48,128 nt of DNA. Origin: an uncultured Alphaproteobacteria bacterium (GTDB taxonomy: Bacteria > Pseudomonadota > Alphaproteobacteria > Methylaequorales > Methylaequoraceae). Of the stretch, positions 28,731 through 37,874 are shown in pieces. The stretch's first letter is position 1, and the number at the start of each line of letters is the position of its first letter. The notes beneath the pieces are model-generated. The model saw only the letters and a program-made list of their open reading frames with translations. It made no database searches and was not told the DNA's origin. The stretch spans positions 1 through 48,128 of the forward strand of contig CACBWF010000003.1 of the NCBI GenBank assembly GCA_902542925.1. The letters run 5' to 3'. The position numbers and the translations under genes were made by a program.

Positions 28731-29102
28731 ATGACAGAATTTTCAGGCCCATCTTTTGATCAATATTTAATTGTGATGGGGTTTTTTGTAGCAATTTTTG
28801 CAATCTTTTTATTTATTAAAAAGAATAGATACATTATTTCTAACAAACTACAGAATCAAAAAAGAATGAAGGTGAGTGATGTTACTCTTTTAGGTCAAGG
28901 AGACAGAGCCCTAATTTTAAAGATAGATGATAAGGATTTCCTTTTTATTTCAGGAAAAAATTCTGGAGCTATTCTTACTGAGATTAAAAATGAAAATAAT
29001 TCTAAAGTAAGCAACATAGAACAAACAAAGTTAGAAACAAAAAATAAAAAAGCTTTTGAAATAAGAAGTTTGATTGAAAAAAGGTTAAAAAATGAAAAGT
29101 AA
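28731..29102 (+). CDS. fliO: flagellar biosynthesis protein FliO
   Basis: N-terminal TM; MKVSDVTLLGQGDRALILKIDDKDFLFISG; between fliN and fliP. Confidence 0.85.
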   Translation: MTEFSGPSFDQYLIVMGFFVAIFAIFLFIKKNRYIISNKLQNQKRMKVSDVTLLGQGDRALILKIDDKDFLFISGKNSGAILTEIKNENNSKVSNIEQTKLETKNKKAFEIRSLIEKRLKNEK

Positions 29103-29847
29103 ATTTGTAGTTAATTTTTCATTAATATTTATTTTCTTATTGACTAATTCACTAAATGCCCAAGAAATCACTTCTGGTTTAGAGGCTTTAACTGTAACCG
29201 AATTGCCAAATGGTGGAAAAACTTATTCATTGTCTCTAAAGATTCTAGCTTTAATGACAGCCCTAACTATTTTACCATCACTTGTATTAGGAATGACAGC
29301 TTTTACAAGAGTAATAATCGTTATGTCAATTCTCAGACAGGCATTAGGAACTCAGCAAACACCACCAAATCAAATTTTAATTGCAATTTCATTGTTCCTA
29401 ACTTTTTTCATTATGGCGCCAACTTTTAACAAAATATATTCTGATGTTTCAGGTCCTTATCAAAATGGTGAAATAACGATGACTGAGGCTATTCAAAGTG
29501 GTGGAAATGAACTAAAAAAATTCATGATAAGAAATACAAGGAACAACGATCTAAATATGTTTTCTGCCATGGCAGGTGAAGAAAATTTTGACAACCCAAC
29601 AGATGTTCCTTTTTACATAGTTCTTCCAGCATATATGACAAGTGAACTAAAAACTGCATTTCAAATTGGATTTTTACTTTTTTTACCTTTCCTTGTAATT
29701 GACATGGTTGTGGCTTCAATTCTTATGTCACTTGGTATGATGATGTTATCCCCGATGCTAATAGCTTTACCTTTCAAATTACTTTTATTTATACTTGTCG
29801 ATGGGTGGACAATGACAGTAGGCTCTTTAGTTGGAACTTTTCAATAG
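29092..29847 (+). CDS. fliP: flagellar export protein FliP
   Basis: SLKILALMTALTILPSLVLGMTAFTRVIIVMSILRQALGTQQTPPNQILI. Confidence 0.97.
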   Translation: MKSKFVVNFSLIFIFLLTNSLNAQEITSGLEALTVTELPNGGKTYSLSLKILALMTALTILPSLVLGMTAFTRVIIVMSILRQALGTQQTPPNQILIAISLFLTFFIMAPTFNKIYSDVSGPYQNGEITMTEAIQSGGNELKKFMIRNTRNNDLNMFSAMAGEENFDNPTDVPFYIVLPAYMTSELKTAFQIGFLLFLPFLVIDMVVASILMSLGMMMLSPMLIALPFKLLLFILVDGWTMTVGSLVGTFQ

Positions 29848-29858
29848 TGAGATAAATT

Positions 29859-30125
29859 ATGGGTTTTGACGAAAATATTGAAATGGTAAGACTAGCTTTT
29901 TATCAAGTATTAATTTCCAGTGGACCTTTTCTGGGAGCAGCTTTAGCTATAGGATTAACAATTGGTATTATTCAAGCCGCAACATCAATTCAGGAAATGA
30001 CACTCAGTTTTGTACCTAAAGTTGTCCTAGTAATTTTCGCTATGGGTTTTATGGCAAACTATTTTATCGTAAGCCTTACAGACTATTTTTCTTTTATATT
30101 TGATACTATTAGCGGAATTAAGTAA
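29859..30125 (+). CDS. fliQ: flagellar export protein FliQ
   Basis: GLTIGIIQAATSIQEMTLSFVPKVV. Confidence 0.95.
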   Translation: MGFDENIEMVRLAFYQVLISSGPFLGAALAIGLTIGIIQAATSIQEMTLSFVPKVVLVIFAMGFMANYFIVSLTDYFSFIFDTISGIK

Positions 30126-30946
30126 TGGTTGAAATTCCCCTACCATTTTATGAGCCTTTTAATAAACTTCCAGGACTAGAATTAAACCAATTAATTGATT
30201 TTTTACTAATTTTTATTTTATCTTCAATAAGGTTATCATCTTTTTTAATTTCTAGTCCTTTTTTAGGTTCAAGAAATATTCCACTACATGCAAAAATAGT
30301 TTTTTCTATGATTTTATCTTTTTTCTTTTTTGGTCAAACTTCTGACATAGAATTAAGTCAGTATATCATTGAAAATTTATTTTTTTTAGTTTTGATTGAA
30401 ATTTTAATTGGAGTTGCAAGTGGTCTGAGTCTTACAGTTTGGTTTAGTGCAGCCTCAATGGCTGGAGAAAAAATTGCAGCTTCAACTGGACTTGGTTTCT
30501 CTGCTTTAGTTGACCCAGAAACAGGTGGTCAGACTCCAGTTCTCAGTGTTTTGCTAGATTTATTTTTATTAACAATCTTTGTTTCACTGAATGGTCACCT
30601 TCTTGCAATAAACCTGATTGTGGAAAGTTATGAAGTTATAGAAGTAGGATCAAGGTTTCCAGGTATTGCACTAATAGGTTCTGGCATTGAGGCTGCTGGA
30701 GCAATGTTTTATACTGCAGGCTTGATAATGCTTCCAATCGTTGGGGGATTATTATTAACAAATATGGCTATTGGTGTAATTACTAAGTCCGCTCCAACAC
30801 TAAATCTATTTTCTTTTGGATTTCCAATAACCATAATGATCGCATTTGTATTATTATTTTTTGCAACTCGATCAATAGGTGGAGCCTTCGCAGAACTAGT
30901 AAAAAACTCAATAGAAAATCTTGAAGTTGTTTTAGGAGTAATTTAA
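30125..30946 (+). CDS. fliR: flagellar export protein FliR
   Basis: Multi-TM; GSRNIPLHAKIVFSM, GFSALVDPETGGQTPVLSVL; TAATG overlap. Confidence 0.93.
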   Translation: MVEIPLPFYEPFNKLPGLELNQLIDFLLIFILSSIRLSSFLISSPFLGSRNIPLHAKIVFSMILSFFFFGQTSDIELSQYIIENLFFLVLIEILIGVASGLSLTVWFSAASMAGEKIAASTGLGFSALVDPETGGQTPVLSVLLDLFLLTIFVSLNGHLLAINLIVESYEVIEVGSRFPGIALIGSGIEAAGAMFYTAGLIMLPIVGGLLLTNMAIGVITKSAPTLNLFSFGFPITIMIAFVLLFFATRSIGGAFAELVKNSIENLEVVLGVI

Positions 30947-32094
30947 TGGCTGAAGACAAAGATGAAAGTCAAGAAAAAACCCAGGACCCCAGTTCCCGAA
31001 GACTTGAAAAGGCTAGAGAAGAAGGGAAGGTTGTAAAATCTACTGAAGTTTTCGTTTTTGTACTACTTGCTGCAGGAATTTTATTGATGCAAATAACTCC
31101 ATTTTTTATAGAAGACTTCTTAAAATTGTGTAAAGGTTTTTTTGTATTTGGGCTTGAAGTAAAGCATGGTCATAGTGCTCTTGGCAGTATTTCAACTGCG
31201 ATAGATATGGTTGTGAAAACTGTTATAGTTTTTGGAATACCTTTGGCAATTGTCTGTATAATTACACAATTTATAATTGGTGGAATAAATTTTTCCCTAA
31301 AATCAATCTACTGGAAAATGGAAAAAATGAATCCTATTTCTGGATTAAAGAGAATTTTTTCACTTAACGGTCTCGTTAATCTTGTTAAGGCATTATTAAA
31401 AGTATTTTTACTTGGCGCAATCTCATTCTTCATAATTAAAAAAAATGTTCCGGATTTAACATACCTTACAACTACAAATTTAGCTTCTGCGTTTGGAAAA
31501 ACTGTATCTTTTTTTCCTGAATTAGTTTTAGCTTTATTACTTGGCTTAGCTCTTATAGCGATTCTAGATTTAGCCTGGCAAAAGTATGATTACATAAAAC
31601 AACTAAGAATGTCGCACCAGGATATTAAAGATGAGTATAAAGAAACAGACGGTCAGCCTGAAGTAAAACAAAAAATTAGAAAACTTCAAATGCAGGCAGC
31701 ATCAAAAGCTGCAAAAGAAAATGCTTCACTTGATAATTTATCTGAAGCCACAGCAATTATAACTAATCCGACTCACTTCGCCGTTGCATTAAAATATGAA
31801 GTTGGTGAATCAAAAGCGCCGGTTGTAATAGCAAAAGGGAGAGGAAAAGTAGCTGAACAAATAATTTCTAAATCTAGTGAATTAGGAATCTCAAAAATGC
31901 AAAGTCCGGTTCTTGCTAGGGCGATTTATTACACATGTGAAATTGGAGAAGAAATTATTAGTAAATTATATAGTGCAGTTGCAATTGCATTAGCTTATAT
32001 TTATAAGGTAAACAATGGGGAAAATATGGATGAGCCAGAAATTGAAATTCCTAACGACTTAGTCTTTGATGAATTTGGTAATAAAAATGTTTAG
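30946..32094 (+). CDS. flhB: flagellar export switch protein FlhB
   Basis: EKTQDPSSRRLEKAREEGKV, NPISGLKRIFSLNGLVNLVKALLK, autocleavage NPTH motif (ITNPTHFAVAL). Confidence 0.97.
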   Translation: MAEDKDESQEKTQDPSSRRLEKAREEGKVVKSTEVFVFVLLAAGILLMQITPFFIEDFLKLCKGFFVFGLEVKHGHSALGSISTAIDMVVKTVIVFGIPLAIVCIITQFIIGGINFSLKSIYWKMEKMNPISGLKRIFSLNGLVNLVKALLKVFLLGAISFFIIKKNVPDLTYLTTTNLASAFGKTVSFFPELVLALLLGLALIAILDLAWQKYDYIKQLRMSHQDIKDEYKETDGQPEVKQKIRKLQMQAASKAAKENASLDNLSEATAIITNPTHFAVALKYEVGESKAPVVIAKGRGKVAEQIISKSSELGISKMQSPVLARAIYYTCEIGEEIISKLYSAVAIALAYIYKVNNGENMDEPEIEIPNDLVFDEFGNKNV

Positions 32095-32296: not shown

Positions 32297-32505
32297 AAAA
32301 AGCTAATATTCTTGATTGTAAAAAATGTAAACATTTGTATGTTACTTATGATAAGTTTTATCCTTGGGGATGCAAAGCATTCGGTTTTAAATCAAAAAAT
32401 TATCCTTATAATGAAGTTTACTCGATTTCTGGCATGAAATGTGCTCTATTTAGTATGAATAATAAATTTGGACAAAAAACAGATAAAAAGGGAAGATTTG
32501 CATGA
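32290..32505 (+). CDS. small four-Cys protein, possible metal-binding
   Basis: DCKKCKHLYVTYDKFYPWGCKAFGFKSKNYPYNEVYSISGMKCALF: CxxC...C...C; 4+3 nt overlaps with neighbours. Confidence 0.75.
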   Translation: MVKKANILDCKKCKHLYVTYDKFYPWGCKAFGFKSKNYPYNEVYSISGMKCALFSMNNKFGQKTDKKGRFA

Positions 32506-33227
32506 ATACGCAACTTAATACGATGCAAGAAAGTATCAAGATCGCTCTAGATGCAGCAGATGCTGCTACGGATGTTACGTCTGAATACAAAAGAATGAAA
32601 AACGAATACATAAAAGCGGAGCAAAAAGTGAAAGAAATACACAAATATACAACAATAATTTTTTCGGCTTCAATTGCAACAGCAGTTGTATCAGTTATTT
32701 TAATAGGCTTGTTATATTTTAAATCATTATCTGAACTTGAAGATATGACTAGTACTAGTAAGGAAGCTCTTGTAGTTTTTGCTGAAAATGTCGAAAATGT
32801 AAATAAAGCTGTTGATAACATGAATCAAAGTTTAAATAAACACTCTGATTTAGTTAATGCAAATATTGAAATCAAAGATAAGCTAAATATGTTAATGAGC
32901 GCTATTGAAAAAAATGACAAAAATTTGATGGTAAGTCTTTCAAAAGAGGTTTCAAATCTTTCAAAAGAAATTTCATCTTCTCTAAAAGCTGAGACTGGTA
33001 AACTGAATCAAAATATTCAAGAAAGCGACGTAATGACATCTGCTAAGGTTAACAAAGCCGTAGAAAAACTTCTTAACGATACAAATAAAAAACAAAACGC
33101 TAAACTGCTAAAGGAGCTTTCTAATAATACTTCAAGTTTGACAGCAGCGCTTGAAGCAATTTCTAAACAAAATAAAGTATTAGTTAAAGAAATTGTTGAT
33201 CAAAAAGAAAGTATAACCTATCCTTAA
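32502..33227 (+). CDS. single-TM coiled-coil protein, unknown
   Basis: TM helix (TTIIFSASIATAVVSVILIGLLYF) and long heptad-like region; ATGA overlap upstream. Confidence 0.75.
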   Translation: MNTQLNTMQESIKIALDAADAATDVTSEYKRMKNEYIKAEQKVKEIHKYTTIIFSASIATAVVSVILIGLLYFKSLSELEDMTSTSKEALVVFAENVENVNKAVDNMNQSLNKHSDLVNANIEIKDKLNMLMSAIEKNDKNLMVSLSKEVSNLSKEISSSLKAETGKLNQNIQESDVMTSAKVNKAVEKLLNDTNKKQNAKLLKELSNNTSSLTAALEAISKQNKVLVKEIVDQKESITYP

Positions 33228-33235
33228 TTTTTAAA

Positions 33236-34018
33236 ATGGAGCAAGTAAATAAGTCCGAAAGTTTTCTTAAAATTGATAGTTTTACAAGGAAAACTGTTGC
33301 TCAATCCTTATTACTAAAAGATAATGATGTAATTGTTGCTCTCGACAATAATCTTTATTTAAAAGGCGAAAATGCACTAATTGAGGATTTAAATTTACTT
33401 AAAAAAGAAGAGAAAAAAACGATACTTACAATTTTCAGAGAAGGTGGTTTTTTTGACGTACTAGTTTCTGGTAGCTTAGGAGCTAAATTTATATCTACTG
33501 ATAATGATGAAACAAAATTAATTTCTGAAAAGTTTTCAAAAAAAGAAATTTTCGATCAAATAGATTTAAAAGAATATATTGCAATGAGGGATTTAACTCA
33601 CAATTATGAAATAATATGCAAATCTAAGTCTTTGTTTGCTGGTTTAATGCCACCGATGTGGCTTGCATACCACAGTAAGTGGTGGTTAATATCTCTTTTT
33701 GCAGTATTAAGTTTTTTACTCATTTCTACTAATTTTTGGATTTTCCTTTTTGGTTGGGTATGTGTGAGTATTTATTGTTACATAGGTCAATTAGAGCTTT
33801 TAATAAGTTTTGCACTTCTGTCCGGGAAAGCATACTCAATGATACTATGCGCAACTGATATGGATCACGCTCAAAAGGTTGTGAGGGAACATAATCCCAA
33901 AGCCAAATACAAGGTGACGAGGTTAGGAGATCCTATTAAATCCGATCAAGAAAATAATAGTAAAGAAGATAAAAATCTAAAAAATAAGATTTCTGATTCA
34001 CAAGAAGCTTTGATATAA
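33236..34018 (+). CDS. membrane protein with PDZ-like N-terminus and DUF2628-like TM region
   Basis: LLLKDNDVIVALDNNLYLKGENALIEDLN..ILTIFREGGFFDVLVSGSLGAKF resembles a PDZ fold; then TM helices. Confidence 0.55.
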   Translation: MEQVNKSESFLKIDSFTRKTVAQSLLLKDNDVIVALDNNLYLKGENALIEDLNLLKKEEKKTILTIFREGGFFDVLVSGSLGAKFISTDNDETKLISEKFSKKEIFDQIDLKEYIAMRDLTHNYEIICKSKSLFAGLMPPMWLAYHSKWWLISLFAVLSFLLISTNFWIFLFGWVCVSIYCYIGQLELLISFALLSGKAYSMILCATDMDHAQKVVREHNPKAKYKVTRLGDPIKSDQENNSKEDKNLKNKISDSQEALI

Positions 34019-34054
34019 TTATAAAGTAAATTATATAAAATTAAGAGGTTATTG

Positions 34055-34663
34055 ATGGTCGTAGCAAAAAACGAACAATATTCTGTTCAAGCAGAAACAT
34101 TAATGAAAGCAGCAATTGAAGATTATCTTGAGCTAATAAAAGAAATTCAAGCTTCAAATGCAAATATGAAATTGATAAAAAGTATTAAAATTACTGTGAA
34201 CGGTAAACCAAGACGGTTAGTTGATGTCGGTGACCTAAAAACGGGTGAAAGTGAAAATCAATTAATTCTTTTAGTTTTTAATACAGATCACGTAGAACTT
34301 CTTTTAGACCAGATTGATGAGCTACAATTTGAATCATCAGTTGATGGTCAATTCATTAAAATTAATGTTCCTGATCCAAGCTATAAACAATTAATGGAAG
34401 TAGTAGACGACTTAAATAGAAAAAAAGGAAGTTGTATTGGAAGACTTACCAAAGCTAAATCTGAAGCAACTACAAGGGCAAGAACTGCAGTTGAAAACGA
34501 GTTTATTGAGCAAGCAGTTGCATCTAGGGCTACAAAAGTTTGCGATGAATTCTTAAGTCAATACACAGAAAAAGTAAATGAAATAACCACAGAAAAGATT
34601 CTTGAAATTTTAGGTGAAGATTATTTTAATAAATATAAAACTGAAGAATTAGACGAATTTTAG
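34055..34663 (+). CDS. ribosome-recycling-factor-like (RRF-fold) protein, diverged
   Basis: AETLMKAAIEDYLELIKEIQASNANMKLIKSIKITVNG..; SSVDGQFIKINVPDPSYKQLMEVVDDLNRKKGSCIGRLTKAKSEAT; C-terminal helix; length and order as RRF. Confidence 0.6.
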   Translation: MVVAKNEQYSVQAETLMKAAIEDYLELIKEIQASNANMKLIKSIKITVNGKPRRLVDVGDLKTGESENQLILLVFNTDHVELLLDQIDELQFESSVDGQFIKINVPDPSYKQLMEVVDDLNRKKGSCIGRLTKAKSEATTRARTAVENEFIEQAVASRATKVCDEFLSQYTEKVNEITTEKILEILGEDYFNKYKTEELDEF

Positions 34664-34665
34664 TC

Positions 34666-35301
34666 TCAAGCATCAATAGAAATTCTATTTTTAGACACTT
34701 CAGTTTTATTATCATAAAGCGATGATAAATTTTTGTATTTATTTCTGTTAGTTGGTTGATAGCTTAGCGGTGACCACTTTGGGTAATCAAATGTCATTCC
34801 CTTAACAGCTAACTTATCATGCTCTTTGAATTCTTTTTCTACATTGTCGGTTTTATTTTGTTTTTCAGAAAAATCAACATTTTTTAAGTTTAAATCATTT
34901 TCTACTTTATTTATCTCGTTTTTCTTATCTTTCCATAGATTACTTATACCCAATGTATCAAATGCAAGTTCTGTAGGTGTTTTATCAAATAACTTTTCGA
35001 AAACCCAATTACCAAAACCAGCAATTGCACCAATTGGACCTCCATATATAAATCCGCCAGCACTTGATTGAACTAAGTCTCTATCTGAGTCAGGTTTGTC
35101 AGAATTGATACTTGAGTATATACCACTTATAATAGGTATATTTTGAAGGGGATTAACAAGACCTTTTATCCAATCTAGAAACTTAGACCTATTCGTGGGA
35201 CTTTCATTTTTAATACCAAAATTTACTTTATTTTTTTTATCTATATTAGTGTTGAAAGCACTTTTGGAATTAAAACTATGTAAATGACTTTTTTCTATCA
35301 T
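34666..35301 (-). CDS. uncharacterised protein, motAB-linked
   Basis: FLDWIKGLVNPLQNIPIISGIYSSINSDKPDSDRDLVQSSAGGFIYGGPIGAIAGF; 4-bp gap to motB. Confidence 0.7.
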   Translation of the reverse strand: MIEKSHLHSFNSKSAFNTNIDKKNKVNFGIKNESPTNRSKFLDWIKGLVNPLQNIPIISGIYSSINSDKPDSDRDLVQSSAGGFIYGGPIGAIAGFGNWVFEKLFDKTPTELAFDTLGISNLWKDKKNEINKVENDLNLKNVDFSEKQNKTDNVEKEFKEHDKLAVKGMTFDYPKWSPLSYQPTNRNKYKNLSSLYDNKTEVSKNRISIDA

Positions 35302-35305
35302 TATT

Positions 35306-36499
35306 TCAATAATTTATTTCTATTTCAATTCTTCTATTTTTTGCTCTTCCTTGAGAAGTATCATTTGACTCAATAGGTCTTGTTTCACCATAACTAATTG
35401 CCTTCATTCTTTTTGGATCAAGAGAATCATTTTTTGATAATTGTTGTACAACCGATGCTGATCTGGCAGCTGCTAAATCCCAATTATCTCTGTAATTTGA
35501 ACCAAATGTCAAAGGCACATTATCTGTGTGACCCATTACTAAAATTTCACTTCTACCTTTTTTATTTTGTTCGGCAATCTTTGCCATTATATCTCTAGCC
35601 TTCCTTGTAAGTTCTGCTGAACCAGATTTAAAGGCACCTGCAGATCCTACCGTAATAATTACTTTATCATCATCCCTGTCAACGTTCACAAGACCCTCAC
35701 CTATTTCCTCTCTCAAAGCAACTTTAAGTTTATCCTCTGCTAGTTCAGCTTTTTTTGCCTCTTCCTTTGCCGATTGACTTTGTTCAGATTGACCAATACT
35801 ATCGCCTTCTGTTCCCTCTGCTTGACTTTCACCTTTGCTACTCGCAGCAGTTGCAAGATTTGATAAAGCCTTTTCTAATCCCCCAATTAGGACTTCTGTT
35901 TCAGATTTGCCACTTGATGATTTAACTGATTCTATTGAATCTAAGGTCTCTTTTAATAAATTTGGAAGTTCTTTCTCTTTAGCATCTAGTGGAGTAAAGT
36001 TAACTACTACTTTATCAGCTAAAACTTCAACCTCAATATCACCTCTAGCTATTGCGTCTTTGATATTTTTTGCTAACTCTGTTGCTTCTTCATCTTTACC
36101 TTCATCCTTTGTTGCATCTTGGGTTTTAGTTTTTAACTCAACATTTGGTTGGTCTGTCTCAGTAGTTTGCTGAGTCATATTTTCTGTAACCGCAGGTGTT
36201 GGGTTTGGACTAAAATTTAGCGATAAAATTGTAGTTCCTTTTGGTTGCTCAACTACCGGTATCACTCTTTGAATTCCAAAAGCATTTTTCATACTACCAC
36301 TTATTTGTTTAAACTTAGGTACATTAAACTCAGCAAATGATAGAATTAAAACAAAAAAAGCCATTAAAAGTGTTGCCATATCAGCAAAGGTTGCCATCCA
36401 TGCCGGAGCACCTTTAGGCGGACAAGCAGGACATTCATGCTCCTCTTCTTCATCCTTTTTTTCTTCTTTTTTTTTCTCTTCGACTTGTTCTTCAGCCAT
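35306..36499 (-). CDS. motB: stator protein MotB/PomB-like with OmpA-like domain
   Basis: CPPKGAPAWMATFADMATLLMAFFVLILSFAEFNVPKFKQISGSMKNAFG; VMGHTDNVPL...NRRIEIEI. Confidence 0.95.
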   Translation of the reverse strand: MAEEQVEEKKKEEKKDEEEEHECPACPPKGAPAWMATFADMATLLMAFFVLILSFAEFNVPKFKQISGSMKNAFGIQRVIPVVEQPKGTTILSLNFSPNPTPAVTENMTQQTTETDQPNVELKTKTQDATKDEGKDEEATELAKNIKDAIARGDIEVEVLADKVVVNFTPLDAKEKELPNLLKETLDSIESVKSSSGKSETEVLIGGLEKALSNLATAASSKGESQAEGTEGDSIGQSEQSQSAKEEAKKAELAEDKLKVALREEIGEGLVNVDRDDDKVIITVGSAGAFKSGSAELTRKARDIMAKIAEQNKKGRSEILVMGHTDNVPLTFGSNYRDNWDLAAARSASVVQQLSKNDSLDPKRMKAISYGETRPIESNDTSQGRAKNRRIEIEINY

Positions 36500-36510
36500 T
36501 TTTTGACCTA

Positions 36511-37278
36511 TTAAGCTGCAGCTTCAACTAGCGCTTGTTTCTCTTTAGGAGGAAGATTAGCAACTAATTGATCTTGAATATTTCTTCCACTTTCGCCCCT
36601 TGATATTAATTGTAATCCTATTATTATCATGTCTCTGTAAATTTGTTCATACAAAGAATAGCCTTTTAATTTTGTAACAATTGGCATAAAAATTGTGTTT
36701 GCAATCATCGCTCCATACAGTGTAGTCAATAGAGCAACCGCCATTGCAGGCCCAATTGCTTTTGGGTCTGCCATGTTACCAAGCATTGCAACTAATCCTA
36801 CTAATGTTCCAATCATACCCATTGCAGGAGCAATATCGACCCAAGCTTGAGCAACACCAATCATTTTCTCGTGGCGTTGTTGCATGCTTTTTAACTCTTT
36901 TTTTAACTGAACAGTTAATTTTTGCTCATCTGCACCATCTACAAGCATTTGAAGACCTCCGTCAAAAAAGGGATCAGGAGTTTCCTGCCCCTCTAATGCC
37001 ATCATACCGTCTTTTCTTGCAATTCCGGCTAGCTCTACAATTCTTGTAATTAATTCATCCATTTTCTTTACAGGTGGTTTAAAAGCTTTACCCATAGCAC
37101 CAAATGAACCCAAAAAAACAGGTAGAGGTGCCGTATACATGACAGCAAAAAAAGAACCCCCAAAAACAATTAAAATTGAAGGTATATCAATATATGATCC
37201 AAGCCCACCTGCTGAAATCATTGCACCAGCAATCATTCCTATGGTACCTAAAAAACCTATGAGAGATGCTAAATCCAT
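36511..37278 (-). CDS. motA: stator protein MotA/PomA-like
   Basis: PomA-like length (255 aa), MGMIGTLVGLVAMLGNMADPKAIGPAMAVALLTTLYGAMIAN. Confidence 0.95.
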   Translation of the reverse strand: MDLASLIGFLGTIGMIAGAMISAGGLGSYIDIPSILIVFGGSFFAVMYTAPLPVFLGSFGAMGKAFKPPVKKMDELITRIVELAGIARKDGMMALEGQETPDPFFDGGLQMLVDGADEQKLTVQLKKELKSMQQRHEKMIGVAQAWVDIAPAMGMIGTLVGLVAMLGNMADPKAIGPAMAVALLTTLYGAMIANTIFMPIVTKLKGYSLYEQIYRDMIIIGLQLISRGESGRNIQDQLVANLPPKEKQALVEAAA

Positions 37279-37397: not shown

Positions 37398-37874
37398 ATG
37401 AAAAAAAACTTTAGCCTAATTACAGTCTTATTGAACATTTTTTTTAGTATTAATCATTTAAATGCAACTAACCTTATAGACAAAGGTTATTATGTAGTTG
37501 ATCTCAAACAAAAAGTAGATTGGTTAAAATGTTCTGCTGGACAGCAATGGGATGACACAAATTGTAGTGGTGAAGCTATCAAATTAAATCTTGAAGAAGC
37601 CGAAATTGCATTAAATCAACTCAATGAACAACTAGAAGGTGAATGGAGACTTCCAACTAAGAAAGAATTGAAAAGTTTAGTATGTAGCGATTGTACAGGA
37701 GCAAAAATTAATAAAAAATATTTTCCAAACACACCTGCAGAACCTTTTTGGACCTCACAGAGAAATTGGTGGTCGCCCAAATTTTATTGGTCAGTTAATT
37801 TTTTTACTGGGCATGTTTATGGTAGATTTGTACCGGAAAAAAGATTATTTTTGAGATTTCTTAGAGATCGCTAA
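37398..37874 (+). CDS. secreted DUF1566 (Lcl C-terminal-like) protein
   Basis: Signal peptide; WRLPTKKELKSLV..FWTSQRNWWSPKFYWSVNFFTGHVYGRF. Confidence 0.75.
   Translation: MKKNFSLITVLLNIFFSINHLNATNLIDKGYYVVDLKQKVDWLKCSAGQQWDDTNCSGEAIKLNLEEAEIALNQLNEQLEGEWRLPTKKELKSLVCSDCTGAKINKKYFPNTPAEPFWTSQRNWWSPKFYWSVNFFTGHVYGRFVPEKRLFLRFLRDR

Follow-up and report, generated by a model that had tools for sequence, protein, structure and literature searches.

A ribosome recycling factor paralogue encoded beside flagellar genes in Alphaproteobacteria, with a possible role in motility

Introduction

Ribosome recycling factor (RRF) is an essential translation factor, normally encoded by a single gene, frr, and its residue Arg132 is essential for ribosome recycling. 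The RRFs of mitochondria and chloroplasts work on organellar ribosomes. To our knowledge, BLUF proteins with an RRF-like partner have not been described. Our literature search, whose scope excluded most subscription journals, found no paper on bacterial RRF paralogues of the kind described here, nothing on point for RRF in flagella or motility in this lineage, and no paper combining RRF and BLUF.

Here we describe a gene in a flagellar locus of an uncultured alphaproteobacterium. By "the window" we mean the whole stretch of DNA analysed, 48,128 nucleotides in length; the protein of interest and its relatives are called RRF-L.

Homology and predicted fold

The RRF-L reading frame of the window runs from an ATG at 34055 to a stop codon ending at 34663, as a preliminary description of this DNA had placed it. 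The gene and its parts are as follows.

34055-34663, plus strand: RRF-L, an RRF-fold paralogue of 202 amino acids (PF01765, E = 7.9e-11; AlphaFold2 model and Foldseek; purifying selection)
34043-34048, plus strand: likely ribosome-binding site AAGAGG, 6 nt upstream of the RRF-L ATG (putative, read directly in the sequence)
34157-34177, plus strand: approximate equivalent of the RRF motif RTGRA, ASNAN in RRF-L (hhalign mapping)
34370-34504, plus strand: helix 2, residues 106-150, where conservation is highest (AlphaFold2 model, alignment and conservation); it contains K133 and K135, at the positions of N130 and R132 of E. coli RRF

The window protein is an RRF homologue. Among Pfam families only RRF scored above its cut-off (PF01765, 42.5 bits against a cut-off of 29.7), and phmmer matched the protein to the Aquifex RRF 1ge9 (E = 1.2e-6). 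An hhalign comparison of the family profile, built from a broad alignment of 34 RRF-L relatives (A4), with canonical RRF gave a probability of 97.9 and E = 3.7e-12 over 190 columns; the narrower alignment A1 had yielded a probability of 82.6 with a misplaced gap, which A4 improved. Searched against PDB sequences, the profile found RRFs only, down to E = 2e-4.

The AlphaFold2 model of the window protein (pLDDT 90, pTM 0.76) predicts a two-domain fold of the RRF type. All 26 Foldseek matches in the PDB at E<=1e-3, which are also the 26 best, are RRFs, and a second model, for a relative of the motAB type with about 33% identity, again retrieved RRFs. Whole-chain TM-scores were 0.5-0.65, and some single-domain matches scored higher; this suggests that the modelled hinge angle differs from that of the solved RRFs. 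The preliminary description had proposed a likeness to RRF over nearly the full length, and sequence and structure comparisons agree with it; no fold other than that of RRF emerged. Chance resemblance is ruled out by the Pfam, hhalign and Foldseek results, and a fold match that merely mirrors the training set of AlphaFold2 by the independent agreement of the sequence profiles. A viral origin was rejected as well: viral contigs contained no relative, and none of the structural matches at E<=1e-3 was viral.

Loss of RRF marker residues

RRF-L scores 28 bits against the TIGR00496 equivalog model, far below its cut-off of 149.1. It keeps eight of the 41 residues that are constant in 18 alphaproteobacterial RRFs and none of the nine arginines among them, and the RTGRA motif is lost. 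The replacements, with E. coli numbering given first, include R28 to Q32, R31 to N35, R109 to Q112, R110 to L113, R129 to T132, R132 to K135 and R133 to S136. The earlier view that RRF arginines had been replaced is right, with the qualification that R132 is not simply lost: its column is lysine in 34 of 34 aligned RRF-L sequences. This conserved lysine would be compatible with ribosome binding. The titles of PDB entries among the fold matches include E. coli R132G and Mycobacterium R31A and R109A mutants, indicating that others have treated such arginines as functional.

The metagenome-assembled genome to which the window belongs is 54% complete and has RRF-L as the sole RRF-type copy seen, which is uninformative as to a second, canonical gene. 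Genome G001, of the same genus, has both RRF-L and a canonical frr, the latter in the order tsf-pyrH-frr-uppS; the tsf-pyrH-frr context is thus occupied by another gene and not by RRF-L. Most members of the window's family (f1) likewise have canonical frr together with RRF-L, and several have a third copy. This coexistence within genus and family bears out the proposal of a diverged paralogue.

We consider RRF-L very probably not a recycling factor. That it is a redundant and still active one would fit its fold, its length and the purifying selection described below, but this reading is highly improbable given a canonical frr in its normal operon in the same genus, the missing marker residues and the low TIGR00496 score.

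Selection and conservation

Judged by a dN/dS of 0.074 against the same-genus copy, RRF-L is under purifying selection. In the proteins of type A, the window type, helix 2 is the most conserved part (mean pairwise identity 0.91 and 0.86 for its two halves), and the RTGRA-equivalent segment (0.56) and helix 3 (0.58) are the least conserved. Canonical RRF has its highest value in the RTGRA segment (0.77), so the conservation peak has shifted from that segment to helix 2. Type A proteins are acidic, with net charges of -6 to -12, compared with -6 to +2 in canonical RRFs. The positive half of helix 2 is kept (+2 in P0001, +3 in canonical RRF), which leaves room for RNA binding.

RRF-L might be a regulator that has kept ribosome binding, in or close to the site of RRF, and acts as a competitor of RRF, as a pausing or dedicated recycling factor, or as an aid to the co-translational insertion of flagellar membrane proteins, its expression from a flagellar locus coupling translation to assembly. 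The invariant lysine and the conservation of helix 2, which in RRF faces the 50S subunit, would be expected of such a protein, and the use of the clade outside flagellar loci, once in fusion with BLUF (see below), fits a general regulated activity. We nevertheless regard this possibility, the main rival to the flagellar role proposed below, as less likely than not, because none of the nine invariant arginines is left, the RTGRA motif is gone, the equivalent segment is among the least conserved parts, and type A proteins are acidic.

Flagellar neighbourhood in the window

On the plus strand, the gene order is fliP-fliQ-fliR-flhB, genes for proteins of 76, 71, 241 and 260 amino acids, and RRF-L; the gene for a 211-residue protein, motB and motA follow in convergent orientation. 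The flagellar setting proposed in the preliminary description is therefore real, with a fliPQR-flhB string before RRF-L and motAB after it. The main neighbours are listed here.

29092-29847, plus strand: fliP, recognised by reading the translation
29859-30125, plus strand: fliQ, recognised likewise
30125-30946, plus strand: fliR, recognised likewise
30946-32094, plus strand: flhB (PF01312, E = 9e-103)
32502-33227, plus strand: 241-residue protein with one probable transmembrane segment and a coiled coil, a constant neighbour
33236-34018, plus strand: 260-residue protein with a weakly PDZ-like N-terminus and probable membrane segments, the constant upstream neighbour
34666-35301, minus strand: 211-residue protein, convergent, between RRF-L and motB
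35306-36499, minus strand: motB, recognised by reading; every complete type A or type M locus has a homologue in this position
36511-37278, minus strand: motA, recognised by reading, with homologues at other loci

The 260-residue gene and RRF-L are separated by 36 nt, and a terminator scan found no terminator-like site between them; promoter-like matches at the locus were no more frequent in a promoter scan than expected by chance.

The 211-residue gene occupies the same place in every type A locus that reaches that far and was not detected beside motAB in the loci of family f175. The protein has no Pfam family, and its core is conserved (NPLQNLPIISGIYSS...GGFIYGGPIGAIAGFGNWVFEK). The 241-residue transmembrane, coiled-coil protein and the weakly PDZ-like 260-residue membrane protein are encoded after flhB in both families with flagellar RRF-L; profile searches gave neither a confident family. 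Beyond motA, a gene that reads like one for a DUF1566 secreted protein (37398-37874, plus strand) has a constant place in both families.

Conservation of the flagellar linkage

Every type A locus of sufficient length has flhB, the 241- and 260-residue genes and RRF-L followed by the convergent 211-residue gene, motB and motA, and the linkage is conserved across nine genera of family f1. In f175, RRF-L of type M (the motAB type) lies directly downstream of motA-motB on the same strand in 20 of the 20 genomes in which motA was found, with a gap of 18 nt after motB at locus L099. Neither motA nor RRF-L was found in f175 genomes G503 and G507, and the locus of G508 is cut off by the end of its contig. 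The pattern in f1 and f175 is consistent with RRF-L being absent where flagellar genes are absent, but the genomes are incomplete and linked genes are lost together, so that part of the co-occurrence is not independent. The preliminary description had suggested looking for orthologues after flhB. Linkage is indeed conserved in two families, and its steadiest element is motA-motB, not the export genes alone.

The position of RRF-L could simply reflect inherited gene order, its function being unrelated to flagella. The order in type A is uniform within one family, and type B and other branches of RRF-L lie away from flagellar loci, both as this explanation would predict. It is improbable all the same: the linkage outlives changes of strand and neighbour between the families, RRF-L standing behind the 260-residue gene in one and behind motB in the other, and several f175 loci have no flhB nearby.

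Distribution and phylogeny

We surveyed 387 genomes from the class and 399 from the phylum, a strong match being one of more than 100 bits to the RRF-L profile. Strong matches occurred only in Alphaproteobacteria. A wider spread in the phylum was rejected, the remaining matches scoring 65 bits or less and having the length of canonical frr. Targeted surveys placed RRF-L in families f1, f109, f173, f175 and f18; where records of f1 bear a name, they are of uncultured marine Alphaproteobacteria. In a quick tree with SH-aLRT values only, RRF-L formed one clade apart from canonical RRF with a support of 100 and long branches. Within it, types A, B and M made up one subclade (support 96), with B nested in A. 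RRF-L is apparently an undescribed RRF-like clade of some alphaproteobacterial families. Its fold makes it a variant of a family already known, and its genomic context and residue pattern seem not to have been described before.

Type B is a duplicate found in the same family and genomes as type A, away from flagellar genes (loci L064, L066-L071 and L084-L088). It lies near bioB and, in several loci, beside genes for a DnaJ-domain membrane protein, a TerB-domain protein and a coiled-coil protein. The f109, f173 and f18 branches are non-flagellar and occur in unrelated places. These members, including the same-genome duplicate, imply that service to the flagellum would be confined to one branch of the fold family.

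A 415-residue protein of f109 (locus L079, 793-2040, minus strand, genome G243) matches both PF01765 (32.8 bits) and BLUF (85 bits) above the Pfam cut-offs, the BLUF domain being C-terminal. Apparent flgF, fliA, flhG and flhF genes, recognised by reading, lie about 3-6 kb from the fusion gene, and motA lies 60 kb away.

In genome G016 (contig C28, loci L051 and L090), the RRF-L gene at its normal locus is broken into two overlapping frames. This frameshift may be an assembly error or the mark of a decaying copy.

Proposed role

The conserved linkage suggests that RRF-L probably has a role in motility. The pattern of residues and neighbours may well come from an RRF-fold paralogue that has given up ribosome recycling and works for the flagellar apparatus; we would put this reading at about even. 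It could act off the ribosome as a soluble cytoplasmic adaptor, a specific mechanism that we hold with slightly less than even confidence. The long helix 2 would dock on a flagellar partner at the stator or the export gate, candidates being MotA, FlhB and the co-located 241- or 260-residue protein. Docking would reuse the face by which RRF binds the 50S subunit, and the invariant lysine that stands where RRF has Arg132 would be central to the contact.

This reading draws on the homology and fold shared with RRF, the low TIGR00496 score, the lost marker residues, the coexisting true frr, the low dN/dS and the linkage in two families, and also on the conservation peak moved to helix 2, the acidity of type A proteins and the support for the clade of types A, B and M. 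The same lysine in the non-flagellar proteins (type B, f109, f173 and f18) may point to a shared, non-flagellar activity, and this counts against the reading, as does the positive half of helix 2. We propose only tentatively the full scheme, in which the RRF fold was duplicated and recruited, through its old ribosome-facing helix and an invariant lysine in place of Arg132, as a stator- or export-gate-associated flagellar protein, a sister branch having been joined to a blue-light sensor.

A whole clade of bacterial RRF paralogues keeps the fold of an essential translation factor and loses its marker residues. If the flagellar role is true, a motor or secretion machine of ocean bacteria has taken up a translation-factor fold, and RRF-L is a specific new candidate gene for motility. 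If RRF-L still binds ribosomes, a dedicated translation regulator is embedded in a flagellar operon, and the BLUF fusion could mean light control in one lineage.

Comparison with known systems

RRF-L resembles RRF itself (Frr; PF01765/TIGR00496) in full-length homology, the order of secondary structure, the predicted two-domain fold and the conserved helix 2. It differs in having identities in the 17% range to solved RRFs and in being encoded at a flagellar locus in lineages that have a true frr elsewhere. The organellar RRFs are also diverged relatives with the RRF fold and were found in the same fold search, but RRF-L shares its cytoplasm with a canonical RRF. The clade touches the BLUF photoreceptors with effector domains (PF04940) through the L079 member, which carries a BLUF domain; the window protein has none.

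Types A and M show the conserved linkage to flagellar genes that would be expected of flagellar accessory proteins. In this they are like the lineage-specific accessory genes beside motAB and flhB, such as those for the 241- and 260-residue proteins, which are conserved, lineage-restricted and in the same locus. Unlike those proteins, which belong to no confident family, RRF-L has a recognisable translation-factor fold.
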